Below are positions 26,138-42,839 of a DNA stretch of 64,000 nt, piece after piece. The stretch comes from Sistotremastrum niveocremeum HHB9708 (taxonomy: Eukaryota > Basidiomycota > Agaricomycetes > Sistotremastrales > Sistotremastraceae). Position 1 is the stretch's first letter, and each line of letters begins with the position of its first letter. The translations under genes and the position numbers were made by a program. Where the stretch lies: contig KV419406.1 in assembly GCA_001630475.1 (NCBI GenBank), forward strand, positions 298,991 through 362,990. The letters are read 5' to 3'. The notes under the pieces were generated by a model. It was not told the origin of the DNA, made no database searches, and saw only the letters and a program-made list of their open reading frames with translations.

Positions 26138-29100
26138 GATATCCAAGCAACTTGTTCGAAGTCAGGGTGGAAAGTAATCGCAGAACGAGTTGCAGGAGCA
26201 TTCGATTGCTGTCGGAGCTTTCAAAGTCCGCTCCACATGCACATCTGTGGCACATAATAATAATATAATAGTACATTACTAGTAAGAGTGTACATGATTT
26301 TCTCGAAGCACATCCATTTCGGACAAAGATTCTGTGTAGAAAGTACTACATTTGGCGGCCTGCTGCTCAGCGGACGCACGTTGATCTGACCTGGCCGAGA
26401 CCAAACTGTGCGCAGCTGGCAGCGTTTCAGTTCGCTCTCTCAAAGCGGCGTCAAAGAATGCTGCATGTGTTGTTCAAGTCGGTCACTTGGTAGCTCGCAT
26501 GACTGGAATGAGATCTGCCTTTGAAGAGGGCAACGTGGGAGACTTGGGAAAATCACATACAAAGAGACGGGATGGCATCCCCCGCTTGTTTATTTGAATC
26601 TGGATGGTCTCGCAATTCAGGATATCACATCGAGGAACGACAAGAAGGAGCGATGGCAAGGAATTATGATGCACCCGATGTCGAGAATCGCCAAATCCTG
26701 GAACTGCATGAACAAAAAGAGACAGAGAGGAACGCATAATCTCCACTTACTTTGACTTATCTGACCGCGAAGTGTGTCCCCACTAGAAGCGAAACACCCA
26801 ATTTCGACGAGTCGATGGCATGCTCTTACTGTCGACGCGGTATGTTTGAAGGTTTTGTCTTGGAATGCCACGACTCTGTCTTCAACAAGATCTCGTCAGC
26901 GACCCAATTCGGAATTCCAAAGCGCCGCGGCCAACCCACCATCAATCTACATGGGTTCAGGGCCGTGCTACTTGGCCGAGTTCGCCGCGTCTTTCCATCC
27001 GAGAGAGAAGCGATATATGCGTAGCACACATCGCAGATGCCTTTTGGGACTCCATCGAGACTTGAACGGAGACAGGCCTTGTTCACGTGAATGATCAATA
27101 ACAGGCTCAAACTTTTATACAGAGTGACATACCTAGTGTTCGCAAAGTGAGAGAAGCTAGGTGACGAGATGACGATGCAATCAGACATGTGTAACACGAG
27201 CTAACCCTTGGAAAGACTGCGACTCAAGATGGGCTCGACGAGAGGTCCAACATATACTGCAGCAGGAACTAACAGCATGAATCACTGTGCGACGACGTGT
27301 TAGCGAGCGAACCACCATCGGTGCTATCCTCTTTGTTAACTTAACGCTCATGGTAACAGCTCTGACGTACTTCTTCGACAAGCTTGGACTGTGATGTGAT
27401 CCGTAGGTGGTTCGAGCGAGCGAGGTGACGCTTGTAAGCAGCTAGTGCCTGACAAGGCTCAGCTATGACCCAGGCCTTTTAAAGTCAGTAATGAAACCCG
27501 ACCATGACGACAGGACCTTACCGGTGCTGAGAATATAGGATGTTAGCCAGAACCCGTGCAACGACAGTGGTCTGTTCTCCATGAGTTAAAGTTACGACAA
27601 GACGACACGCCGACAATGAAGGTCCCTCACCTATAGACGATATCCCTACGCTACGACGGAGCGTTCCAGCTGGAATAATCGGATGGAATCGGAGCGAAGT
27701 TGGCGCAGGTGGTTGAGGCGAAACGACCTCGAATGGAGGGGAATGGCTGCAGACGGCCGGGGCCAATCACGGCCAAAAGACGCACTTTGGAGGGACACGG
27801 AGTGTTGGGTCAGCACAATTTGGTCTTGTAGCAGCTAGAGAGTATCAGGCACAGCCAGACAGCCTGATATTGGCATGTGGTATCCAGCATCAGTGTCGTT
27901 CGTCCTACGAAGTCTCCGGCGCTTAGTCTGGCTGCGATCACGGTCATTCTGCTAATGACTTCTTATTAAGTTATTTTCGATGTCAACCGCGACTCCAACG
28001 CTGAGTTTTCTACGACCAACACCTCAAGCATTCAATTAGCTTTGACATCAACTATCAACTGGGCAAATTTTCCGTCACGCGCGCCAGAGCCTATTAGCAC
28101 TATCGACAAATGCTTACCCTGGACAGTCATTCTTGAAAGCGCTATTGTAACTTGCAAGTCATTCTTGATTCAGATGCGGTCTCCTGCCTCGGGGACTGAC
28201 ATCTCTCATCAGCACTTGTCTCTTCCGCTGCCTTCGCTTCGGGCTAGTAGGGCCAAACCGTTGCTGAGAAACTTGACGGATCGTGCCAAAAGCAATCTCT
28301 CGTAGACTCGTACTGTGGCCTCATCCTCCAGCAAAACGTCTCCCTGAGATAACACCGAATGACTCTGTAATTCTGAACCTACACAGATGAACATGCACTC
28401 TCTGGGAACATCTTTAGGCTCCGTAAACCCAATCCGAGGGTATATCAATGTACGCGTTTCGAGATCTTACTGCCTCAGGCTCGTTGACTCAAGGCCCAAA
28501 TCTGGCTTGGCAATCTTTTTTCAAAAGTCGAGTCCCGTCTTCGTACCATTTCCAAGTCCAGCCACCGCCTGCTCTTACCAGCGCTCACCTCTTGAGGTAG
28601 AATCTAGCTGAACGCGCAGATGTCGAGGGTATATTGAGCTGGAATCTTGGGATGGAAGATAGAGAACAGTAAGGACGGCACAAGAAGACGTATGGGACGC
28701 GTTATTCATCAATGTGTTTGTGTTCCAAGCTCATCTGCTCAAATCGCACGACTGACACTATTCCTTAGCCCCTAACGAAAAGAAAGGCAATCAAAGTCGT
28801 AAACTCGAAGGACCGATTGCTGCACGTCCCTCACAAACGAGCATCGAGGACTGAGCCAAGACCGATGGATCGGCGGGAACGGACATGCGACTCGAAAAGG
28901 CCAGCGGGAGCGGAATATAACCGAGTTTTGATGAGGCGATGGAAGCGATGGAGTACACGGAAACTAAGTAGGTGATAGCAAGCCCCGGTCTGCCGCAGCA
29001 GCCTCGCAAGCAGCCTCAGCAGCTTGTTTCTTTGATTTGTGCTCTTTAACGAATTTTATTAGTATCAGGAGACTTTTGATATTTGGCTGATAGCCCGAGA

Positions 29101-29167
29101 GAGAGCGATTGTGTGTGATAAGAGAGCCAGCGTAATATGAACCATGAGTAAAGCAAGCAGCTCGTTG
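26138..29167. other. Long gene-poor stretch
   Basis: Only short overlapping frames on both strands are present, none with a recognisable motif, consistent splice signals or a repeat match in the window. Around 26260-26285 there is a short AT-rich run of ATAATAATAT. I see no supported gene in 3 kb. Confidence 0.5.
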
Positions 29168-30002
29168 AATGCAAATTTCTATACATGAATGTCTCCGCTA
29201 CGACAAGCCCCAACCCAATCTACCAGTACGTTTCAGCCCGTCTCCGTCCCCGATGTCCAATCCTTGATGTCCCTCGACGAAAGCCCCTCGGTCGCAGACA
29301 TGCGGCCCGCCTAAGAAAGTGCGGGTCAGCGTAGGGCACGAAACAGAGGAACAAGAAACTCACCTGTCGGGCAGGCCGACTGCGATGCAGCGCAGAGCGC
29401 TGTTCGCAAGCGATGGATGTCCCGCAGCCGCACGACCATGGGCCCATGACCACTGGTTGCCCAGCGATCATCACCACATGACCCCTTGGCCTCAGACACA
29501 AACGGGCAACAATACCCACAGGGTAAGTCGCAAACGTCTCACGACGTCCGAATGCGCAACCCCCACTCAGCACAGCAGCACATCACAGGTTGACCGAGCG
29601 CAACGAGCCCCCATCTGATGGGATGGAGGACGGTGGTCAGTCATTTGGGTGCAAAGCACGGACCTGATGGCCCCATTCCTCGGGATGAGGAATGGCGAGC
29701 CCACACTTGACGACCTTTCGGACGCCAGGTGAGAGAGTGGAGGGGGACGAGAGAAAGAGAGCTCACAGAGTGACATTTCTTTTATGCACAAATTCCTCCC
29801 TCACACTCCGACTTCCCACGACAGTGCATTCGAGCAGCAGGAGACATGGCCCATTTCGGTCGTTCGATGCAATATACCAGCGAAAGCAAGGACGCACAGA
29901 AGAGGACAAGTGAGTGAGGGGGAGGGAGTAAGAGCAGTTGCCAGTGAGCGGAGTAATCCGTATCGAATTTCCATGTACATTGTCGCCGGCCCATGTCTTG
30001 AC
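29168..30002 (-). repeat. 835-bp duplicated unit, copy B (inverted)
   Basis: This is the inverted partner of 23695-24529 with the same length. The same 70-codon frame (ending at 29567) and the same intron-like block are retained, with only scattered substitutions in the core. It lies about 260 bp left of the terminal repeat of the 10.7-kb element. Confidence 0.85.
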
Positions 30003-30262
30003 TATGCTCGCATCGAGCAACAATACGCATATCAAGGGGCGTCCATAGTCCGGTGCTGAATTGCTGTTCTTGACCTTCTGGATTCTGTCAGACGGCGATG
30101 GCTCGCTCTCGACGTCTGAGGCCTTGCTATAGAAACAGTTTGAATATACTCGTTCCCGATAAGGAACTCGATTCTAGAAAGAAGCCCTAGGATTTAGTCA
30201 ATCAGTCATCCTTTTGGTAGTAGCGGCGAGAAAATGTTTACTTATGCATTACTGTGCCCTTC

Positions 30263-30294
30263 AGTATGGCCAGCCGGCTGATACATTATTCAAA
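30263..30294 (+). repeat. Left outer terminal inverted repeat
   Basis: It begins AGTATGGCCAGCC and ends ATTCAAA. It pairs with 40924-40955 at about 25 of 32 positions. Confidence 0.7.
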
Positions 30295-30762
30295 CAAATC
30301 TTTTCTTTTCAGGAGGATCAAACTTTTCAGCGTTTTTGACCAGATGTTTTTGTTTTTTAACTTCTTTTCACACTTTTTGCCACATGTTTTCTGAAGGCTA
30401 AGAACTTTTTTTTGGATCATGTTTCCTTGACACAAAGAAGCTTCTCAGTCTGCAGTTTTGGACAGTCTTGTTTACTTGAAGAGCTTTCTTATCATCAACC
30501 TTCTTTTCCAACAGCATATATAGGAGAAGATGTTTTTTGAGTCGCCTATATGGCACCTTGTTTTCACTAGATTTCTCCCAAGAGTTCACACAAATGTGCC
30601 TTTGTTTTCAGAGTAGTTTTGCAGTAGTTTTCTTTCATTCACCAGTTGTTTCTTCAGATGATGTTTTCACAGAAGATGTTTTCACTCAGGGGTTCTTTCC
30701 ACACAGAGATCTTTTTTGCGGGATCTTTTTCCATCACACATGTTTCCCATTTGGTGTCCACT
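30290..30762 (+). repeat. Left T-rich subterminal array
   Basis: Many short variants of AGATCTTTT, AGATGTTTT and ACATGTTTT are scattered at irregular spacing, often near CACAGG or TCACA. The same set occurs on the opposite strand at 40617-40917. Such clustered subterminal motifs commonly serve as transposase binding sites. Confidence 0.65.
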
Positions 30763-30796
30763 GCTGACTAAGTGTCACAAGCCGGCCGGTGATCTC
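30763..30796 (+). repeat. Left inner inverted repeat
   Basis: The 34-bp sequence has GCTGACTAA and GCCGGCCGGT blocks and matches the reverse complement of 40574-40607 at about 26 of 34 positions. Confidence 0.75.
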
Positions 30797-31199
30797 CATG
30801 TTGCCCAAACCAGGTAACATACATGTGACTGATCATGTGCAAACACGGTCACGTGTATTCCCTGACATCATGTCCGAGCCATCCCGGGGGCCTTGTCTGA
30901 GTTTCAATGGTCTTGATTGTTCTTGCCTAAGGGAGAACAATCATTCAGTGTTGTTGTCATCCAGTTTATACTCTGAACAGTGCACTATATGCGACACGAG
31001 AACACTTATCTATCACAAAATGTCCTCAAATGCAGGTGTTCATCTGCCAGAGCATCTCCGATCCCACTGTTTCTCAAATTAGATTTAAGCTCCGCTTGAA
31101 AACGAGGAAAAGTCACGGGTATCCAAGGGCCTCAAGTCGACGTGGTGCTTTATTCCCCGCCTTTGCCCTTGTTCTCTACAAGGCAACTGATACCCCACC

Positions 31200-34100
31200 A
31201 TGCCCGTGCTTTCTAGCGCGCTTAGACCATGCCAGGCTGCTAATTGTGCTCTCAGACTGAGGGGACAGGCGTGTACCAAGTTTCATTCTCCTCGATTCAA
31301 TTTGTTGTTGCAGTTGGCGCAGTTGACAGAGTGGTTGAATGCCAAGTGCGCCGACTGTGGATGTGAGGGTCGTGACCATGTAGATCCATGGTTGTTAGTG
31401 GTACGTATGCAGGCAAATCACAGGATATACATACTAAAGATGTCATAGGGAGCTCAAGATGATCCCCTGCCTCATGTTCAAGTTGCGGCACAAGCTTCTA
31501 CCAGCGCCCAGGCGGTGGTCCCCATGTGGGTTCAGCCAAGCATTCCGAACACAATTGACCCTGCCTTGCCACCCCCTGCCTATGTCCAACAAGCGCCTGC
31601 CGCTCCTCCCTTAGCCGTGCAGACGCCTGCGGCGCCCGGTCTCTTCACAGCCGCTGCTGATAGGCGCCAGGCGGCTGTAGCACAAGTGGTAGGCACTAGA
31701 GAGGTAGCAAATCAATTCGCTCATTTGGGAGAGGTAAGTTATGCCTTACTTCGAGACTTGCACGCTAATATATGTATCAGTTCATGATGAAGACCGAACC
31801 TCCGAAAAGAGCCTCTGGCTCGAAGGAGAAAGGCCCAAGAAAGAAGGCTAAGGTCGAGACGGATGAACAAACTACAGTTTGCTTAGTCCTCCTGCCAGAT
31901 ACGGATCACGTCAACAACGCCCAAACTGGAGTAATGATCCAGGCACACTCACGTCAGTCAAAGCTTTTGGCAATTTACAAGGAGCGGGTGCAAAGTACTG
32001 AGGATGAGCCCCCCGCTTTCGGTCGTTCACGATTGGGCTACACAGTGCCTAGTTTAAGTCGGTTAGTTTTACTTAGTCCTTGGAGGAAGAGATTACTAAC
32101 TGTTTGCAGGCTGGCGAAGGTGGCTGAACTCGGGCTTTGTGTCCAAATCATTGTTCGCGACTCGGATACTCCGGATGACATCCATCGCAAAACTCGTAGG
32201 GCATTTCAACACGTCGAGGAGTTTCCAGACAGCACGGAGGTTGGCTATCGGTTTCTTCAAGCCGAAGATACCTCCCAAGGCCGGCCGAAAGTGCTACTGT
32301 ATTACCAACCAGCGGACCCCAGAGTGGCATTGGTGGAGCCAATTAGTGGAAAGGCTTTAGGCTTGTAAGCGCTCCTGTTCAAGCGTGATAGAGTCCAGGT
32401 TACTCACCCGAACGAAGACTCGGTCGGACCATCCACGATGTGCCGAAGCGGATGAGGAATATCCCGATGGTGTTCCTTGTCATGAAGCCCGGATTCCCAA
32501 ACGTGCCCTGGCATTACCGTGAGGATCTTAGTTTCATATCCAAAGAAGACGTACGGGTATACACTGCTCAGAAGAAAGGGAAAGGGAGGAAGGCTGTGCG
32601 TAGGGAGGTCGAACCGGACTATGAGGACGACATAATAGGAGCCGTGGATTTCAAGGATGGGGACTCGGATGCAGGCAGTGATAGCAATACCCTGGCTGAT
32701 CCTGACGCGGACTACGTTCACATCGGCATTGGTAGCCCAGTACGCTCAGCTGGTCCTCCATCGACACGTGCTTCGACTCGAGCTAGTGGCTCAACCGCGT
32801 TCTCAGGGGTGACAAAGTCGAATGCCTCCGCTAAGCGCCTGACCGATGCAGAGGTTAGTAAGCAGTCTTGATAGTCATGACACGTACTAACCTAGCTGTG
32901 TTAGATCCTCGAACAATGGGGTGTTGAGCCCACTGCGCCGCCCGTGAGAGTGAGTGCGTGTGTGTGGGAAAGAGGAAAGCACTGACGTCTGTGATCAACA
33001 GGCACCGGCGGAAGTAGATCAAGTGGATGTCGACGAAGAAGACGAGGATGTTGATTGGGTGTTACAATTCGATGCGCAGTATCGTGCGAACAAGAAGAAG
33101 TATCTGACTGTCGGTGGCCAGACCTTTGCTCTTGTTAGCAATGTTGTCGAGTGCGAACAGTCTTCACAATGGGTCAGTCTCCTTGTTACTATTCCGTGAA
33201 TGTAACTCACAGAGGGTAACAGTTCCAGCAAACTGACATATATAAGAAACTGGAGCGTCTGTACTACGCCTGTTGCACTCATGCTCGGGATCTCGCGTAC
33301 AACGAACACCGGTTCAGTCTCCTCGGCAAAGCCCTCGAGGGTTTTGGACGTTATTCAGAGGCGTTTCCTGTGAAGGCCTCTTTACCTTTGCCCAATACAG
33401 CAGAGTTCTTGGCGCTTATGGAACTAGCCATTTACTGGGGGCAGTTTGCGAACCCGGGGCTTGTGCAGCATGTGGAGTTGATGCAGAGAGCGATAGAGGT
33501 TCTCGGGAGGGATTGGCAGAAAGGTCATGTGGGAATGTACGAGCGCGCCATTCGGTTGCGTGATGAGTTGGGGAGTCAACTCATCGCGCTGCGCACAGTG
33601 GTCACAGTGTTCAAGGGTAGCAGCATCCTATCGCCAGATGATCACCCAGCTCGGGTCTATCTGGATCGCAAGCCATTCTCGACTTTGAGAATTTACTTGC
33701 TGTGCAGCTCTGTCCGGCTCTCAGTGAGTGATTCTGGTCTTCCTGGACTTCGTTTACTGACTCTAGCACAGCCATCAAACGGGATACGTTATGCTGTCAC
33801 TTTGTTGCGTCTCCCCAAAGACGCCGAGGCGGAAGGATCCTCCGTCGACGAGTTTGACAAAGCCTTCGAGGCTGACTTCGGTGAGCCCGATGACGACTTC
33901 ACGGTTTCCTTCGCACGCTTGCGTGCGGGGATTTCCGTGCCGGGAGAGTACAAGTCTCCTGGACTGTGGGATATTGTGCGCGACATATTTGACGTCTTCC
34001 TGGATGAAGTCCCTCTCGATCATCCGTTACACGATAAATATGGGGCTATTTTTGAAATGTGGGCGGATGTGTTCTTGAAGACGATCGACAAGCATCGGCG

Positions 34101-34748
34101 CGTGCAGGGTTTACGACCCGTGAACGAGCTTGAGGACTATGTTCAGCCAAGGCCCGTGCGGGATGAAGGGGAAGCTGAGATGCAGTTTGCGTAAGTTGAT
34201 CTCTTCATAAGGAATGTGTCTACGGACTTACAAGTCGGTAGACATGAGCCACCTGTAAAGGCCGAGAATGATCTGGGATCCGTGTTGGGCGACGGCCAGG
34301 TAGAGGCGGCGCAGTTGGGCGAAGATCACGGTGTCTCCGCCGAAGAAGCTGTAGGCGACAGCGCTGAGGAGGGAGGCGAGATCGATGAGGGCAGCGCGGT
34401 GGAAAGAGTCGCTTGGGGTTTGGAGATTCCGTTGTATTTGGGCATTGAAGATCGAAGAAAATTGCGAGAGGCTGCGGTAATAAGTGACGTCATTGATATG
34501 GCTAAGTATGTGGTCGAGAATTGGACTGATCAGTTTGGTCCTTTCCCCCGTTCGTCCAGCACGGCCAAGTGGGGGAAGGTACGACTGAATATACTGCTCA
34601 AGGTGCGCAGTCGGGCATTGTGAAGTGCGGAACTAATCAATCCGCGTTTTAGCATTTCAAAGGACGCCTGGAAGAATACGAACCAGGCTCTCCTGCTGCA
34701 GCGCTTGCCCGCTTGATTGCGGATGTAATCACACACTGTCGAAAGTGA
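31200..34748 (+). CDS. Cargo gene X of the 10.7-kb element, unknown function
   Basis: About a dozen exons read in one direction. Landmarks in order are LAQLTEWLNAKCADCGCEG (a small Cys cluster), a Pro/Ala-rich linker, a basic PPKRASGSKEKGPRKKAK stretch, a conserved-looking domain with VQIIVRDSDTPDDIHRKTRRAF and NIPMVFLVMKPGFPNVPW, and an acidic DVDEEDEDVDW stretch. A helical region follows with YKKLERLYYACCTHARDLAYNEHRF, then DIVRDIFDVFLDEVPLDHPLHDKYG, and a final exon ending IADVITHCRK with TGA at 34746-34748. The start is uncertain: ATG 31200 is in frame with the first clear exon, and ATG 31021 is an alternative. The acidic and basic stretches suggest a nuclear, possibly DNA-associated protein. 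No enzyme family is recognised. Confidence 0.65.
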
Positions 34749-35234
34749 CGTCCAACGAGGACAGGGCTTGAACGAAGAACGAGGGACTGGGATACGGACT
34801 GTGTTCACGGATATTACGATCGGGATATATCGGACTGACGAAAATATATAGCTTACAGGAAAAAAATTACGGAAAAGACCGTAGCAAATGTGTGTAGGCT
34901 GATACATGGAATGACAACCGCGTTTGCTGCGTTGAGATACGGGGAGTGTCGTTAACCTGCGATGATTCCGGCTTCACGTTCATGCCGTTTGTTGGTAGTT
35001 GAGCCCGACCGGCACATTCACACATTTGAAGCACACAAGAGCGGCGTCATACATTTGAGGCACACGAGGGACCAATCACACGGAATGCACTTCAGAGGCG
35101 TGGGCCGATATATTAAGTGTTGAGGAGCTCGAGGCCAATGCAGACGTCAGCGGCGCCAGAATCTGCCCAACACATGTTAGACGATGACGGCTTTCATGGA
35201 TATGCAACTCACTTGTTCAAACAGCATCGTTCCA

Positions 35235-35875
35235 TCAAACTGCTCGCTGAGGGCTCCACATGCGCAGATGGATCACGGTGTACGGAGGAAGCGGTCTTGT
35301 CCAGGTCCGGATAGAGAGGCCCGCCATATAACAGATCCATTTCGAACCGACTCCTGGAGGGTCAAAGAGACCGTGCAGAATATCGGTCATCCCTGCCACA
35401 CTCTCGCTGACAGTGCCATTTGAGGCAGTGCCATCGAGACTGTAGCAGAGGTCCTGGGCGCTCAACCAATACGCTGAAGAAAATGTTGTTATCCGTTCTC
35501 AAGTAAGCCGACGAATGGACAGCTCACCGAAGAACACTAGGGTGCATCCCAGGCAGGTTTTCCGAAATACAGGAGGGTTCGACTGCGAGAGTGAATGATC
35601 AGCGTGTGTCGACACGTTTGTGGGAGCGATGAGGACTTACGACGATCAAATCAATATTAAAAAACTAGGTTGAGACGAGTTCTATTGTGCCGTTGTTGGA
35701 CTCGTTCAACCTCTGAAGAATTCACCGCTTACCAGAAGAGAGAAAGGACTCGTGGGTTGAGGGAGGGCGGGCAGTGTGTTGGGGAGAACGACGTGGTGTT
35801 GTGTGTTGGCGGAGTATCAATTTGCGTCCGTCTTTGGTGATGTGACTGGAGGGTGTCACGAGCTATCTTCGGCAT
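35235..35875 (-). CDS. Possible small cargo gene Z (weak)
   Basis: Between genes X and Y the minus strand has exon-like pieces with splice signals. A start MPKIARDTLQSHHQ at 35875 is followed downstream by SNPPVFRKTCLGCTLVFF, then YWLSAQDLCYSLDGTASNG. I could not join the first exon to the rest in frame, so the model is incomplete. No family is recognised. The hydrophobic CLGCTLVFFAYWL run could be a membrane segment. Confidence 0.3.
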
Positions 35876-36410
35876 GATAAGGAGAGTGTCAGGAAGGTAC
35901 TAGGGGGAAATATAGCATGACGCAGAGTCGTACGATTATCTGCGACCTAGAATTAACTAGATAGAAAGGTCAAATAACATACCCCTCCGGATGTCTTCCC
36001 GTGGACCTTTCGGAAGATGCATAAGACCTGCTGAGAGCACGTCTCAGGACACAGATGAAACGGTTTGGCTGCTCTAACTGCGCCCAACAAATACCGCGCG
36101 AGATGAACCATTCCGGTGAAACCAATGGCTCAAAAGAAAATGAACGCACCGCGAGACACAGCACTCACGATCACGTGCCAATTTGATCCCGTGATCGGCA
36201 CCCTCAAATAGCCGCGCCCTGAGCCAGCGTTTCGGAGTTGCAATTTAAACTTACCTCTCGATCGTCTGATCCCGCCAACGCCCTCTGAAGACTGCCCCCT
36301 CACCGCCGTCCTATCTGTCGTCCTCAATTGGACCGCAGATTGGATTACTGGGATCTCGTGCTCCTCTGCGCCAGATCGAGAAGACATTCGACCAATTCAC
36401 CCGACCGATT

Positions 36411-38538
36411 ATGGAGCAAGATCGACAGGCTGCCTTTCTGGAAGACGGCGAGATTACTGATGCGCCCCAAGGTAGACAACTGACAGTTCATTGGGTTACC
36501 CGCTGACGAGACTAAATATCACAGAAAGCGAGATCAACGAGCCACTCGTGTGGGCTGAATGGCGTGATGGACTCCAAGTATCCAGTACGAACGCCCTATA
36601 CATTCCCAGCCCACCGCCAAATCACCAGCTCATTCAGATGCGCTCGGACGGTCGATACGGAGAGGCTGACCATGGCCTCTCACCTCAGTTCTTCTGTGCC
36701 GCGTTCCCCCATCTCTCATATCTGCCGAAATCAACGCACCCTCAGTATCCTTCTCTCAGGGCGATAGCAGGCCTTCTGGCCCCAGAGAATGTCGTCTCAG
36801 TCGTACCGAGCTCGTCCCATACGAGACTGCGTCTTTTAAGCCAGACACTGCGAAGCGACGCTACGTTGGCTATCACACAGCTGACTTCGCAGTTAGAAGG
36901 CCTTCTCACAGCCAACCGACGCTTGATACTCGCCCAGATATTGAGACTCGCATTCGCACTTATCAACGTCACCCGCAATCTCAAATTACAGCTCGAAACT
37001 CCCATGACATGGCCTTCGCTGCTACGTCTCTGGGGCACAATGCAACGGCACTGCCAGGAGATCGCAGGGCTCGTCGAGTATCTGCAGCGTGTCATCACGC
37101 CTGCACTCTCTTCCGTCACCATACCCGACCTCCAAAACGAACTTCTTGGCGCATTCACACGAGACCCCGCCGTCGCCTTACAACTCCATCGTCACGCTGT
37201 ACCCGTATGGTTCATTTCCGCGGCTCGCCAACAAAACAATTCTTCCTCTCATACCGCCATACGGGACTCTCTATCCGTCGAGCCTCTCATCCCGCTCGCA
37301 TTGTCCGATGATAGCTCCCCCCTCACTCCTTGGCAAGAACTCGGTACATTCGCCAACGACGATCCAAAGGCCATCATCGCCCGCGTTGAGTACGACCGAC
37401 TTTTCACCCCCAATCCCGAAAGCTATGAGATCCAAGATCTCCAGACCAGCTCTCGAGACCGAATAGCCACCGTGATGCCGCAGCAGAGCTCATTGCCCAA
37501 GGCACCAAAGTCTAAGACACGCGGGCACCCGTGTAAGCGACTCCGCAAGAATCTCATACTCACGCATCTCATCTTTCATTCACAGACAAAGATGGCGGTG
37601 AGACGCCTTCAGTGGGCAATCCAACCCTCGGGATTGCGTTTCGCAAACCTGACGAAGTGCCCGATTGGTCGGTCGCTTTGGACCGTTGTCGTCACCTCCC
37701 AGAAGCCAGAGTCAGCGCTCGTCATACCTATCCTCCCACTCTCCTCTTCTCTCGACTAAATGAGACTACTCGGCTCCGATTTCTCGTCAATTGGCTGGCC
37801 GTGCGGAAGCGCTGGTTTGCACATGTTCAACACCATAACTTCTCGGAAGCGACCGCTCTCACCCGCCAAGACTGGCGCCATGTCCTCAGTCACCGTCCTG
37901 AACGCGGGAAGTTTGTCAGAACAGGCCATCCCGCTCTTGAATTTTTTGACCAACTCTTGCCCAAAGGAGCGCCTCCAATTAACGAGCTGGGGGACCTGGT
38001 ACTCCACAAGTGGTTCGGCCGCGTGTTAGACCCCCTGAATCCCAAAGAAAGCCTTGTTACGCAGCGACTCATTTTGTGGGAATTGGATGAGTGGACTTTT
38101 CGCCACGAAATCCTAGAGCTCGACGAGCGTCTCAGCGTGACCGTTGGTCGCACCGAGGAAACTATAGCTCAGCGACGCGCCGTGATCATGAGGATGTGGG
38201 CTGGTTATCCCCTCGACACCGACAACCACTTCCTCTACGAACCGGACCTTGACCGTGGCATCAACTCCTTTATCTGGGATTATTCAGTGCCAGCTCTCAA
38301 CTCGGCTCGCCTGATTATGCGGTCCTGGCCGAATGCTCCGGAGTCCTTCACCGGAGCACTTGTCCTTCCAGTGGACATGAACTCGATCCCAGTTGTCCGG
38401 CGATTGCAGCAGGCGATCCCTCTTTTTTTCTGTGAATCGTATTATCGTGTGTTTCAACGTCTGCCGATTGTTCCAAGTCAAATTCCTATCCCGTTCACTG
38501 GGTTGCCGCCTGATATCGCCTGTATCACCGCTTCTTGA
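36411..38538 (+). CDS. Cargo gene Y of the 10.7-kb element, unknown function
   Basis: Three exons join in frame. MEQDRQAAFLEDGEITDAPQ from ATG 36411 joins the long second exon at ESEINEPLVWAEW. A second intron at about 37532-37587 is followed by KDGGETPSVGNPTLG and DEVPDWSVALDRCRHLPEARV, ending GLPPDIACITAS with TGA at 38536-38538. The product is about 680 residues and soluble. Its first half is helical (SQLEGLLTANRRLILAQILRLAFALI) and its second half rich in Trp and Arg (LRFLVNWLAVRKRWFAHVQ, RLILWELDEWTFRHEILEL). No catalytic or nucleic-acid motif is recognised. The gene converges with the integrase gene, leaving about 135 bp between the two stops. Confidence 0.75.
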
Positions 38539-38674
38539 TACTGTATTCCAATACATATTCATTTACGACGAACACCGATTCAGCGATCATGTTGGCCTCA
38601 ACGATAAATCAATCCGCCTTCAAAACAGTGCATTCCAGACATCAGCGCAAACACAATGGCATGATACATCAAAT

Positions 38675-40308
38675 CTACAATTCCGCCACGCCAGCCTCAA
38701 GCAAAGTCACCACTTCAGTATATACTTGCATCCCTACCTGATTGTCTTGGCGCATCACGTCAAAATTCCCAAGCACTTGCTTACCCCACTCTACCGCTTG
38801 TCCTAACAAAGTTAGCTGAACCTCATCTTCTTCCCCGTTGGCATCATCGTCCCTCCGATGCTCTCGCTCTAAACCCTCCAATACATCTGGCGGTAAGTCG
38901 TGTTCATCGTCCACGCCGTAATAGCGCTGTCGTGCCTCCTCCACAGGATCTCCGGGATCGTTCCAATAGCCACCAAGAATTGCCTGCTGTCGAGAGAGAG
39001 ACCAAATGGCCTTGGGTGATCGATGCCTCTCGCTGCTGAGTGCGTGGTGGTTCCAGGTACGAGTGGCTTCATCGAGCGACGCTTGGACGCGAGGCTGATA
39101 CACCAATATCATAGCCACTCGATGGATCCGATTCTCCAGGACGAAAAGACCGTTCTGCCGGAGAAGGCGAAATACGGCGGCGAAGGGAGCTAACGTTGTT
39201 TTACCGATGTCACGCCAGAGACGTTCGATCCGGACGTTGTGAACCGAGCTGTGCATAGCATGTAAGCGAATGTCTCAGCTGTTGAACACTGCACACTCAC
39301 CGTCCTCTCAAGAATGCATAATGACCTCCATTCTCGCCACCCCAATGCTCAATCATTTTGTGAGCAACAACGTTGTTCTCGGTCCCGAAATCAGCTCTAA
39401 TGCGACTTGGCCAGCCAAATTCGGCAAGTTTCGGTTGGAAGCACTGCCAAACTGTGAGTGCCTTCTTATTCCAGCGACATTCGAGATAAATGATGTGTCG
39501 AGAATAGCCGTCCACGCATCCATGAATATATAGACCGGCACGGACCAACTTCTCGTTCGCGTCCATGTGCCAGAGGGCATTTGTGCAACGAACGTTGTAT
39601 TCTCTTCGTGCGACGATTTTGTCATGGCTATTTGATGTGAGCATGAATTCCATTTGATTAATAAGGCTCTATCACTCACAAATGACGTAGAGGCCGAGTA
39701 TCGACGCGATGAACGCTGGCACGCATCCGTGCCCTTGGCACTCGATGTCCAAGAGAGATAAGATGGCCCATCAGGAGTTGTTGGCCGTCTTGAGGATGGT
39801 TCTCAAAGTAAGTCCGGCAGATGTTGTCCAGATCCTCGTCTGATATCTGCGAAAAGGGGCGAGGAGTATCAATGCCGGCTTTTTCGAATTGACGCCTAAT
39901 GGTAACTCGATTGACGCCAAAGACATTAGCAATGTCTTTCCAGCTGCTGCCGTTCTGATAGAGCTCAAGGATCGCCTCAAGCGGCAGTTCAATGGAGGGT
40001 CGGCCTCTTCGGCCGGTGTGACGGACAGGAAGGTGAGGGCCCTCGTCTACTGGCTCTAACAAGCTTAACTGATTAATCAGATCTAATACTAGATCCAACA
40101 TCTCGTCTATAGTCTCCGGGGCCACATGAGGATCTTCAAGATGCACGAGAATGGGAACAATGGCACGTAGGCGCCGGTCGACGTGCTCTCGATCCAATGG
40201 ATTTCCTCGAGGATATTCGCCAATCAGATGTCGAGCTCGATCGCAGGTAAGTTGAGCACTTCTATATAGCTGTACGAGTCGATCGTTGACGTCCATTCGC
40301 AGAGACAA
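38675..40308 (-). CDS. DDE integrase-type recombinase of the 10.7-kb element
   Basis: Three exons give about 500 residues. The N-terminal part has a helix-turn-helix (ILELYQNGSSWKDIANVFGVNRVTIRRQ) for DNA binding. The catalytic core has ALWHMDANEKLVRAGLYIHG with the first Asp, IRADFGTENN with the second Asp, and SVHNVRIERLWRDI with the probable Glu, after a YAFLRGR segment. This arrangement matches the eukaryotic integrase core-domain proteins of the retroviral-integrase fold found in fungal and animal mobile elements. The C-terminal tail is acidic. Both introns join in frame, so the gene looks intact. It most likely moves the surrounding 10.7-kb unit by acting on the terminal repeats and T-rich arrays. 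Confidence 0.85.
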
Positions 40309-40573
40309 TGATTTGGACGGTGACGAGGGCTGTTCGGCGTGATAACACCGAGAAAAATTTTAAGGGGTAAATATTTATCCTATTACAATTCTTAGTCTAA
40401 CTAATCCCAAGGCAGCAGGTCTTGAATACCCTGGAAAATGATGAGGATGAGCCTGGCAAGTGATGCGTGGGTGAAGCCGAATGAATAATGCGTGCTGTTG
40501 GAGTTTTCTGGCCGAGCTGCCAAATTTGGCAAGTCAAGACATGGGTAAATATGAGTTTCTATTTCGGGCCGAA

Positions 40574-40607
40574 GAGCTGACCGGCCGGCCAAGGACGATT
40601 AGTCAGC
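40574..40607 (-). repeat. Right inner inverted repeat
   Basis: Reverse-complement partner of 30763-30796, with GCCGGCCGGT and GCTGACTAA preserved. Confidence 0.75.
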
Positions 40608-40616
40608 TTGATCGAG

Positions 40617-40917
40617 ACTGAGGATGAAAAGTAAAGAAAAGAAAGAACAAGAAAAGAAAAGATCCTGTGAAAAACATCTTGAGAGAAAACAGCCTGTGAA
40701 AAAAGATCTTGTGAGAAAAGATCATGTCAGACAACAAAAAGCGATTTCAAGCACGCTTAAAAAGATCTTCTCAGAAAGAACTGCTGCGAGCAAAGATGTT
40801 ATGTGTGAAATGGAAGTGTGAAAGAATCTTCAAGAAAAAACATGTTGACGAAAAACAACTTTGCACGGAAAGAAACATCCTCTCTCAAAAAGAAGTAAAA
40901 CTGAGGCAAAGAACATA
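40617..40917 (-). repeat. Right A-rich (reverse T-rich) subterminal array
   Basis: On the minus strand this reads as repeated AGATCTTTT, ACATGTTTT and AGATGTTTT variants with CACAGG, mirroring the array at 30290-30762. Open frames across it are by-products of the low complexity. Confidence 0.65.
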
Positions 40918-40923
40918 GGGTGA

Positions 40924-40955
40924 TTTGAATTAAGTAGCACTGGGCTGGGCATACT
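40924..40955 (-). repeat. Right outer terminal inverted repeat
   Basis: On the minus strand it starts AGTATGCCCAGCC and ends ATTCAAA; partner of 30263-30294. Confidence 0.7.
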
Positions 40956-41405
40956 TCAGAGATTGGCGTGACGTCGACCAGTGTATTCAGGGTGGCCCCT
41001 CCAATTCTTTTCGGAGGCCAAACTCGTATGAAACCTCCACGCATCGTTGTCAGTTTAATACTGGCTCGATCACAGTCCCCCCATTGGTCGTGAATCTACA
41101 TTGTGGACACAATTACAGGTTGCAGTGTAAGTGCACTTTGTTTCCAGGCAAAAATGAAGCAGTCTTGCTGAGCTTGAACGTAGTCGACGCCGAAGCCTGC
41201 AATCATGGCCGAAGGTTAGCCCCTTTGACTGCAACGTATAGATCTGGATTGCTTTCTTGTCGTTCAGCGAGACGAGAGACCGAAATAGCAAATAGTTCCA
41301 ATCAGGCGACCCTTTCCGGCGACCCTCTCCGGTTGAAATGAACACTGGCCTATCTCATCCCAGTCTCCCATCACCTCTCTCGACCATCGATTTGTACAAG
41401 TCCAG

Positions 41406-42839
41406 ATGACTCTGCATTCTCCCAATGCCCATCTCTCGACGGGATCAGATGAATGGGAACAAGTCGCAAACATTATGCCGCCGGAAAACCCGGAGACGCT
41501 CCTGACGATCCAACAGAGACGAGAGCGTCTGTCGAGGTTGAATACTTTGAGAAACGAAGTCTCTGATGTCCCTCGTCCGTCTTATTGTCTCTTCGTCGCC
41601 CGCGTCAACTAATTATTTTCCAGAGATCGGCATTACTGTCGTCGGAAAGACGATTAATGTGAATGGAGGAGATATCCCGATCAGAACATACGTGCCCATT
41701 CCAAACGAGTCTCTCGGAGAATCTGTGGATCAATCTTTTCCTTTGCTTGTGTGGTATCACGGTGTGTGTGTTTCTGTCGCCAGTATTCGTCTCTGAACAA
41801 GCTCTATATAAGGCGGCGGCTGGGCTTTGGGTGACCTGGAAAGCGAGGAACTCGTTTGTCGAGCGATCTCGCTTCGGAAACGATTGTCAGTCATCAACGT
41901 CGCCTATCGATTATCCCCTGAATTTCAATTCCCTGTCGGATTGTTGGATTGCTATGAAACTACCAAATGGGTATGTACCTGAATGACCGAGGAGCCCGAG
42001 ATGAGGTTACCTGACGTGAATTTTCAGGCCGCCTCCAATATACTGGAACTGAAGGCGGACCCACACAAAGGCTTCCTGGTTGGCGGAATATCTGCTGGTG
42101 AGGCATTTTCCTCTGCTTAGAGAAACTGGCTAAACTCCATGTATGCGTATCTAGGTGGAAACTTTGCGGCTGTCATCTCCCTCCTCGCGCGTGATGACCC
42201 GTTCTTCAAGACACATCCTCTCACTGGGCAGATACTCCAAGTGCCTGCCGTCTGTATGAGCTCTGTATATCCGGATCGGCAAGTAGTTTTGGGCGGACAT
42301 CATCGACCTGAGAAGCTGACTTCGGTTGCAATTCACCAGTTGGAAAGATCAACTAGTCTCTACTGAAGAACTCGCTGAGGCGCCTGTCTTGACGAAATGG
42401 AGTATCAAGCAATTCATAGGTACGTTATGCGGTGCCCTGATACGGCCACTGCTGAAGATGATTCCTTCTAGAGCAGTATGGTTCGCCAGACCCTCATGAC
42501 CCACGCGTTTCTCCTCTCCGTGCGGAATCGCATAAGGGTCTTCCACCGGCATATCTTCAGATCTGTGGCATGGATCCTCTCAGAGATGAAGGTATTGTCT
42601 ATGAGAAAGTCTTGGCTGAAAACGGTGTGCCGACGAAGATTGACATGTGTGTTCTTTTCTCGATTTCTCTGTCCCGTGCAAGTTGACCAAGTAAATCTAG
42701 ATACCCGGGGTTGCCACATGGATTCGCAGGAATCATTCCGCATCTCAAAGCAAGTCAGAAGTGGAAAGATGAGCTCGCGGCTGGGATAGACTGGCTTCTT
42801 GGCCAGAGCGGAGAGGAGAAGAAAGATATCAGTACATAA
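41406..42839 (+). CDS. Alpha/beta hydrolase (hormone-sensitive-lipase-like, fold-3 type)
   Basis: About seven exons can be read: an N-terminal lead (PPENPETLLTIQQRRERLSR), TVVGKTINVNGGDIPIRTYVP, LLVWYHGGGWALGDLE (the HGGGW oxyanion motif), INVAYRLSPEFQFP, and FLVGGISAGGNFAA (catalytic Ser in GxSxG). Then come PPAYLQICGMDPLRDEG (catalytic Asp) and IYPGLPHGFAG (catalytic His), ending GEEKKDIST with TAA at 42837-42839. All three catalytic residues are in the right order, so an active carboxyl-ester hydrolase is likely. No signal peptide is seen, suggesting an intracellular enzyme. The first intron is the least certain. The gene starts about 450 bp right of the 10.7-kb element. Confidence 0.85.

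Follow-up and report, generated by a model that had tools for sequence, protein, structure and literature searches.

Companion genes in an IS3EU-type DNA transposon of the basidiomycete Sistotremastrum niveocremeum

A 10.7-kb unit in the genome of S. niveocremeum HHB9708 carries a DDE transposase gene (Int) and two further genes (X and Y) between nested inverted repeats, which raises the question of whether these parts form one mobile element, to which family it belongs, and what X and Y contribute to it. The window analyzed was a 64,000-nucleotide stretch (contig KV419406.1, positions 298,991 to 362,990). This contig is designated C13 of the 34.7-Mb, 111-contig genome, and C-numbers below refer to contigs of the same genome. 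In its anatomy the unit is a single, complete IS3EU-type DNA transposon, inserted with a 6-bp target duplication. Every complete element found has X beside Int; Y accompanies them usually but not always and is the more dispensable part. We consider it likely that Int is the IS3EU transposase, acting by cut-and-paste, and that X is a probable helper or regulator and Y a probable auxiliary.

Ends, transposase, and family of the element

The element spans window positions 30265-40953 (10,689 bp). Its ends, read directly, are TA..TA and form imperfect inverted repeats of 34 bp; the left end TATGGCCAGCC begins at 30265 and the right end GGCTGGGCATA finishes at 40953. The left terminal inverted repeat (30265-30298, + strand) matches the right one (40920-40953, - strand; TATGCCCAGCC in inward reading) at 24 of 34 bases, and is alike in the elements on C16, C4, C26, C30, and C64. 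A perfect target duplication, CTTCAG, flanks the element at 30259-30264 and 40954-40959. In a scan of all TA..TA pairs joining positions 29000-31200 to positions 40300-41500, only the pair formed by this element had identical flanks of 6 bp. The outer repeats of 32 bp described in an earlier note on this DNA are present, but at both ends the element proper begins 2 bp inside them, since the extra AG/CT bases belong to the CTTCAG duplication; hence the length of 10,689 bp. Neither the outer nor the inner repeat pair was listed by a general repeat finder (seed 11); the arms are imperfect.

Gene models were built with GT-AG splicing and introns of 47-53 bases, and all three genes are open. Int (38675-40296, - strand; exons 40296-39680, 39627-39301, and 39248-38675) encodes a DDE transposase of 505 amino acids and is the one such gene found, in agreement with the earlier note. 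The protein matches Pfam PF24764 rva_4 (integrase core) with an E value of 3.2e-56, and its NCBIfam matches to IS481 (6.4e-12) and IS3 (7.7e-4) were both under the model cut-offs. The catalytic triad D228, D285, and E323, with 37 residues separating the last two, is invariant in an alignment of six copies. A region resembling a helix-turn-helix (HTH) lies at about residues 106-143, with HTH matches below their cut-offs, and an HHCC domain was not among the Pfam matches. The earlier note could name no family for the element. Its ends (TA..TA), its duplication of 6 bp, and its transposase, which resembles rva_4 and IS481, agree with the descriptions of IS3EU in PMC10045372 and PMC12730594, so a family can be named: by these features the element fits the IS3EU superfamily.

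Outside X, Y, and Int, no stop-to-stop frame longer than 150 amino acids was present among the listed frames of 80 amino acids or more. Polinton/Maverick elements carry genes for a protein-primed DNA polymerase, an ATPase, and a capsid. A self-replicating element of that kind would share the 6-bp duplication and the retroviral-type integrase core, but here the 34-bp ends are short and a polymerase gene did not turn up; apart from Int, only X and Y are long genes, and neither matches a Pfam family (frames below 150 amino acids were not scanned). We therefore regard a Polinton-like identity as extremely improbable.

The T-rich arrays that the earlier note placed inside the ends were found at both ends in inverted orientation. 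The left subterminal array (about 30299-30760, + strand) consists of GATGTTTT- and GATCTTTT-like units, and the right one (about 40640-40919, - strand) is its inverted likeness; the limits of both are approximate. T content is 40% in the left array and 39% in the right arm, in inward reading. The two arrays share 92 7-mers in inverted sense, versus 22 in a reverse complement control and 54 in a plain reversal control. The inner 34-bp inverted repeat, likewise noticed before, was recovered at 30649-30682 (+) and 40671-40704 (-) with 27 of 34 bases matching, a value that none of 200 randomized pairs reached (mean 22.05, maximum 25; random walks on the dinucleotide frequencies of each region).

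Recurrence of the element and its genes in the genome

If the unit is one element, copies sharing its genes inside the same ends are expected elsewhere, and such copies were sought and found. A genome search with Int gave 46 matches, counted as 23 loci, nine of which were examined for ends or companions; all genome-search counts are lower bounds. Four complete elements besides the window copy have homologous ends and a perfect 6-bp duplication each: C16:675397-693110 (CTCCTG; end match 23/34), C4:789306-800659 (CTCGAA; 29/34), C26:170918-182535 (CACACA; 29/34), and C30:139023-155279 (CAGGAC; 26/34). The end arms of the five complete elements thus match at 23-29 of 34 bases. The scans for these four required TA at both ends, allowed one mismatch in the duplication, and returned 129 to 200 candidate pairs; in every scan the pair with the best end match had a perfect duplication, and the next-best pairs reached 17-19/34. 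A run of 3,523 N lies inside the C16 element (C16:680360-683882). In all five elements, the 7-mers common to both ends in inverted sense numbered 60-100, versus 10-22 in the reverse complement control. The array motifs differ by lineage: GATGTTT-like in the window copy and C16, TTTTCCCT in C4, CTTTACCC in C26, and TTCTTTCC in C30.

A 24-base end pattern, allowed up to one mismatch, had 11 matches genome-wide, nine of them ends of the C4, C16, C26, C30, and C64 elements, and the reversed pattern had none; the window element's own ends are too divergent for this pattern. The remaining two matches lie at C8:877615 and C13:620324. The first of these (C8:877615-877638), away from the copies examined, reproduces exactly the 24 bases with which the C4 element begins and may represent a fragment or else a non-autonomous derivative. 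Partial copies on C64 (83390 onward) and C6 (1035506 to about 1049096) carry Int and Y without X, and each has a single recognizable end in the sequence examined. An inverted 290-bp repeat, 87% identical, brackets the C64 copy (C64:82588-82877 and 94332-94624). It resembles an element end with a GGGCCC duplication, but the likeness continues past the apparent end.

Gene X (31200-34748, + strand) encodes 1016 amino acids in 11 exons (31200-31400, 31449-31733, 31781-32061, 32110-32364, 32418-32853, 32905-32949, 33002-33172, 33223-33723, 33772-34190, 34242-34602, and 34653-34748) and has homologues in all four other complete elements. Its protein has an N-terminal Cys/His cluster, a basic stretch, and a helical stretch in exon 8; the cluster residues C11, C16, C25, C50, C53, and H60 are invariant in an alignment of five X proteins. 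X had no Pfam match at E ≤ 1, and a PDB sequence search likewise gave none. The window proteins were aligned with splicing to each element, with reversed-protein controls scoring 150-234. X scored 1664 in C16, 672 in C4, 519 in C26, and 459 in C30, and was at control level in the partial copies (153 in C64, 179-180 in C6). In models guided by the window protein, exons 1-4 are of near-equal length in all five copies, exon 4 having 255 bases in four and 264 in C30; the far parts of the C16, C26, and C30 models include doubtful small exons.

Gene Y (36411-38538, + strand; exons 36411-36471, 36525-37532, and 37586-38538) encodes 673 amino acids and had no Pfam match at E ≤ 1. The earlier note had spoken of two long, intron-rich genes of no known family. 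Both genes are intact in the window and lack Pfam matches, but the description as intron-rich suits X with its 11 exons, and Y has only two introns. Exon 3 of Y is predicted to be all-helical (AlphaFold2 pLDDT 79, pTM 0.81); no PDB fold matched it at E ≤ 0.001, and the best PDB sequence (E 0.085) was not significant. Y scored 1934 in C16, 856 in C4, and 798 in C26, as well as 828 and 937 in the partial copies on C64 and C6 (for C6, the control was reversed X only). The C16 Y has a break of about 500 bases and one stop. In C30, Y scored 220, near its reversed-Y control of 200; between X and Int this element lacks Y, and the - strand there has other open frames instead; a scan of five of these gave no Pfam family match. 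By these scores, X is present in five of five complete elements and Y in four of five.

These distributions bear on whether X and Y are ordinary single-copy host genes beside or around which an integrase element inserted, a reading for which no supporting point was found. At five loci, homologous ends flanked by perfect duplications enclose X and Int, and at four of these Y as well; the order X-Y-Int recurs among elements. A first genome search with X (E ≤ 0.001) gave seven matches at five loci, all within the five complete elements, and a second (E ≤ 0.01) gave nine matches at four of the same five loci. No X match was obtained outside the five elements, which speaks against X as a host gene; since the second search did not recover the C26 X, X genes of greater divergence at other loci may have escaped both searches. 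The contrary outcome named in the earlier note, that of single-copy host genes in synteny without the integrase, was not seen for X, whose matches are confined to elements, nor for Y, which is a multi-locus family with four loci in complete elements. We accordingly give almost no credence to the host-gene reading.

The proposal in the earlier note that X and Y are both element genes stands in that they lie in one mobile element rather than among neighboring host genes, but needs qualification for Y. Besides its absence from C30, Y has relatives at 12 further loci (on C12, C55, C73, C88, C5, C8, C71, C57, C20, and C33, and two on C36), the weakest at an E value of about 1e-4, and the Int search gave no match near any of them. 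Y is thus less tied to the element than X. One of these relatives (C55:112393-117712) has an alpha-kinase gene at a distance of 2-4 kb and no Int match in its neighborhood, an arrangement suggesting that cargo of both kinds, Y and alpha-kinase, can occur in a single unit.

Roles of X and Y and the age of the element

Under the assignment that we favor, Int would bind the 34-bp ends through its HTH region, excise the element, and join it to staggered target DNA, which would give rise to the duplication of 6 bp. X, which has a conserved Cys/His cluster and a basic segment, would probably move into the nucleus and bind the lineage-specific T-rich arrays just inside the ends, where it would assist or regulate Int in the manner of the second proteins of other DNA transposons. 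Y is probably auxiliary, in regulation or in protection from silencing, and the element may lose or exchange it. The arrays and X both differ by lineage, as a coevolving, end-binding X would explain. A more specific version, which we offer tentatively, is that of a multi-protein IS3EU lineage in which X represents a new zinc-type family and is a necessary or regulating partner that recognizes the arrays and coevolves with them, and in which Y occupies a slot for exchangeable cargo, filled by Y here, by other open frames in C30, and by TET/JBP and alpha-kinase genes in rusts.

Alternatively, X and Y may be anti-silencing or host-conflict genes outside the transposition machinery. In rusts, a TET/JBP dioxygenase gene is part of some IS3EU elements, and the author of PMC12730594 proposes that it helps them escape methylation silencing. 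X and Y also evolve faster than Int (C4-C26 identities of 37%, 61%, and 80% for X, Y, and Int), and for the fast evolution of X an anti-silencing role accounts equally well. Against it, the presence of X in all five complete elements, with no match elsewhere, is explained no less well by a core function, and an enzyme domain was found in neither protein. We judge this alternative a real possibility, somewhat short of even chances.

The closest pairs among the aligned copies are the window copy with C16 and C4 with C64. For C4-C64, the nonsynonymous and synonymous rates (dN/dS) were 0.030/0.538 for Int and 0.075/0.474 for Y; silent sites were saturated in the other five element pairs computed. 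These values bear on a further alternative, that the element took up X and Y from the host as mere passengers, which play no part in it. Their multi-exon, host-like structure would suit passengers, as would the Y relatives at 12 loci without a nearby Int match, the one near the C55 alpha-kinase gene among them. However, no X relative was found outside elements, the X-Y-Int order is repeated, the lengths of X exons 1-4 are kept despite saturated silent sites, and Y is constrained between C4 and C64. We find a passenger status unlikely.

Several observations weigh against the roles that we favor for Int, X, and Y. Of the ten possible X-bearing pairs, five were computed, and all five had saturated silent sites, so they give no measure of purifying selection on X. 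X is the fastest diverging part: between the window copy and C16 its identity is 46%, or 50% over a trimmed alignment, versus 90% for Int, the C16 X model containing doubtful small exons around an insert and the N run. Such speed is not what one would expect of a partner that only binds the ends, and it would suit a protein in conflict with the host. A DNA-binding domain was not recognized in X, the zinc cluster being a reading of the alignment, and X-less elements may be among the other 14 Int loci. As to the arrays, the plain reversal control shared 54 7-mers in the window copy, 30 in C16, 23 in C4, 26 in C26, and 47 in C30; this control is the closer one, so the likeness between ends is partly mere T-richness. 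DNA searches with the window's subterminal regions did not find a second copy. Mobility itself is a reading of the sequence anatomy.

The earlier note had called the element whole, and with its perfect duplication, both ends, and three open genes the window copy is so, and undecayed. It had also called it possibly young or active. That its duplication is perfect and its genes are open suggests that it has decayed little since it inserted. On the other hand, there is no sign of a recent burst: its closest relative in the genome has 10% of the transposase residues changed, and silent sites are at saturation in all pairs computed except C4-C64. The pairwise divergence makes each lineage old.

Comparison with known transposons

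En/Spm elements have a second protein, TnpA, and subterminal repeat arrays. The window element resembles such two-protein DNA transposons in having a protein beside its transposase and in its subterminal arrays. In Harbinger/Nuwa, the transposase is accompanied by a Myb/SANT protein (PMC12730594); X differs in that it matches no Pfam domain, Myb/SANT included. Two other groups were ruled out by the 6-bp duplication in five of five elements: Ginger1/Ginger2, with duplications of 4 bp or 4-5 bp (PMC10045372), and Zisupton (KDZ), with 8 bp (PMC12730594).

IS3EU (Repbase; the IS3EU/GingerRoot lineage) is described as having TA..TA termini, usually 6-bp duplications, a DDE core of the IS3/IS481 kind, no HHCC domain, and a first catalytic D 100-300 residues from the N-terminus (PMC10045372). 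The TA..TA ends and perfect 6-bp duplications of all five complete elements agree with this, as do the IS3/IS481-related core of Int, its first catalytic D at 228, and the absence of an HHCC domain among its matches. The window element differs in its added genes X and Y, none such being mentioned for IS3EU in the available text of PMC10045372.

The TET-bearing IS3EU elements of rusts have 6-bp duplications, ends of TAYGG..CCRTA over 30 bp, and a TET/JBP gene between the transposase and a distal, oppositely oriented alpha-kinase gene (PMC12730594). The window element shares with them the 6-bp duplication, the presence of several genes, and a transposase opposite in orientation to the distal gene. 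C4, C26, and C30 read TATGG at both ends; the window copy and C16 read TATGG on the left and TATGC on the right, the latter unlike the TAYGG of the rust elements. Their cargo also differs: X and Y lack Pfam matches at E ≤ 1 and are therefore neither Tet_JBP nor Alpha_kinase. In a weak test with a single-sequence template, X had no detectable homology to one alpha-kinase product of the genome (hhalign probability 0.2/100, E 0.3). A search for TET/JBP had no match in the genome, and its controls were empty too.

At C5:711500-721499 and C18:475000-484999, a distant Int-like gene lies about 4 kb from an oppositely oriented alpha-kinase gene. Over 9.3 kb these two loci share 90% identity; element ends were found at neither. 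The arrangement recalls that of the rusts, and the genome thus seems to contain a further IS3EU family, of rust type.

Companion genes like X and Y were not found for IS3EU in the literature searched, as far as it was available, and may be on record in Repbase. Y-like transposon genes with relatives at many loci may swell the "hypothetical protein" families of fungal genomes. A constant X with a variable second gene offers a clean system for asking what extra genes do in eukaryotic DNA transposons. IS3EU is a minor superfamily whose cargo genes, as named in the available parts of PMC10045372 and PMC12730594, are TET/JBP and alpha-kinase, and the X/Y cargo is a new variant within this known superfamily.

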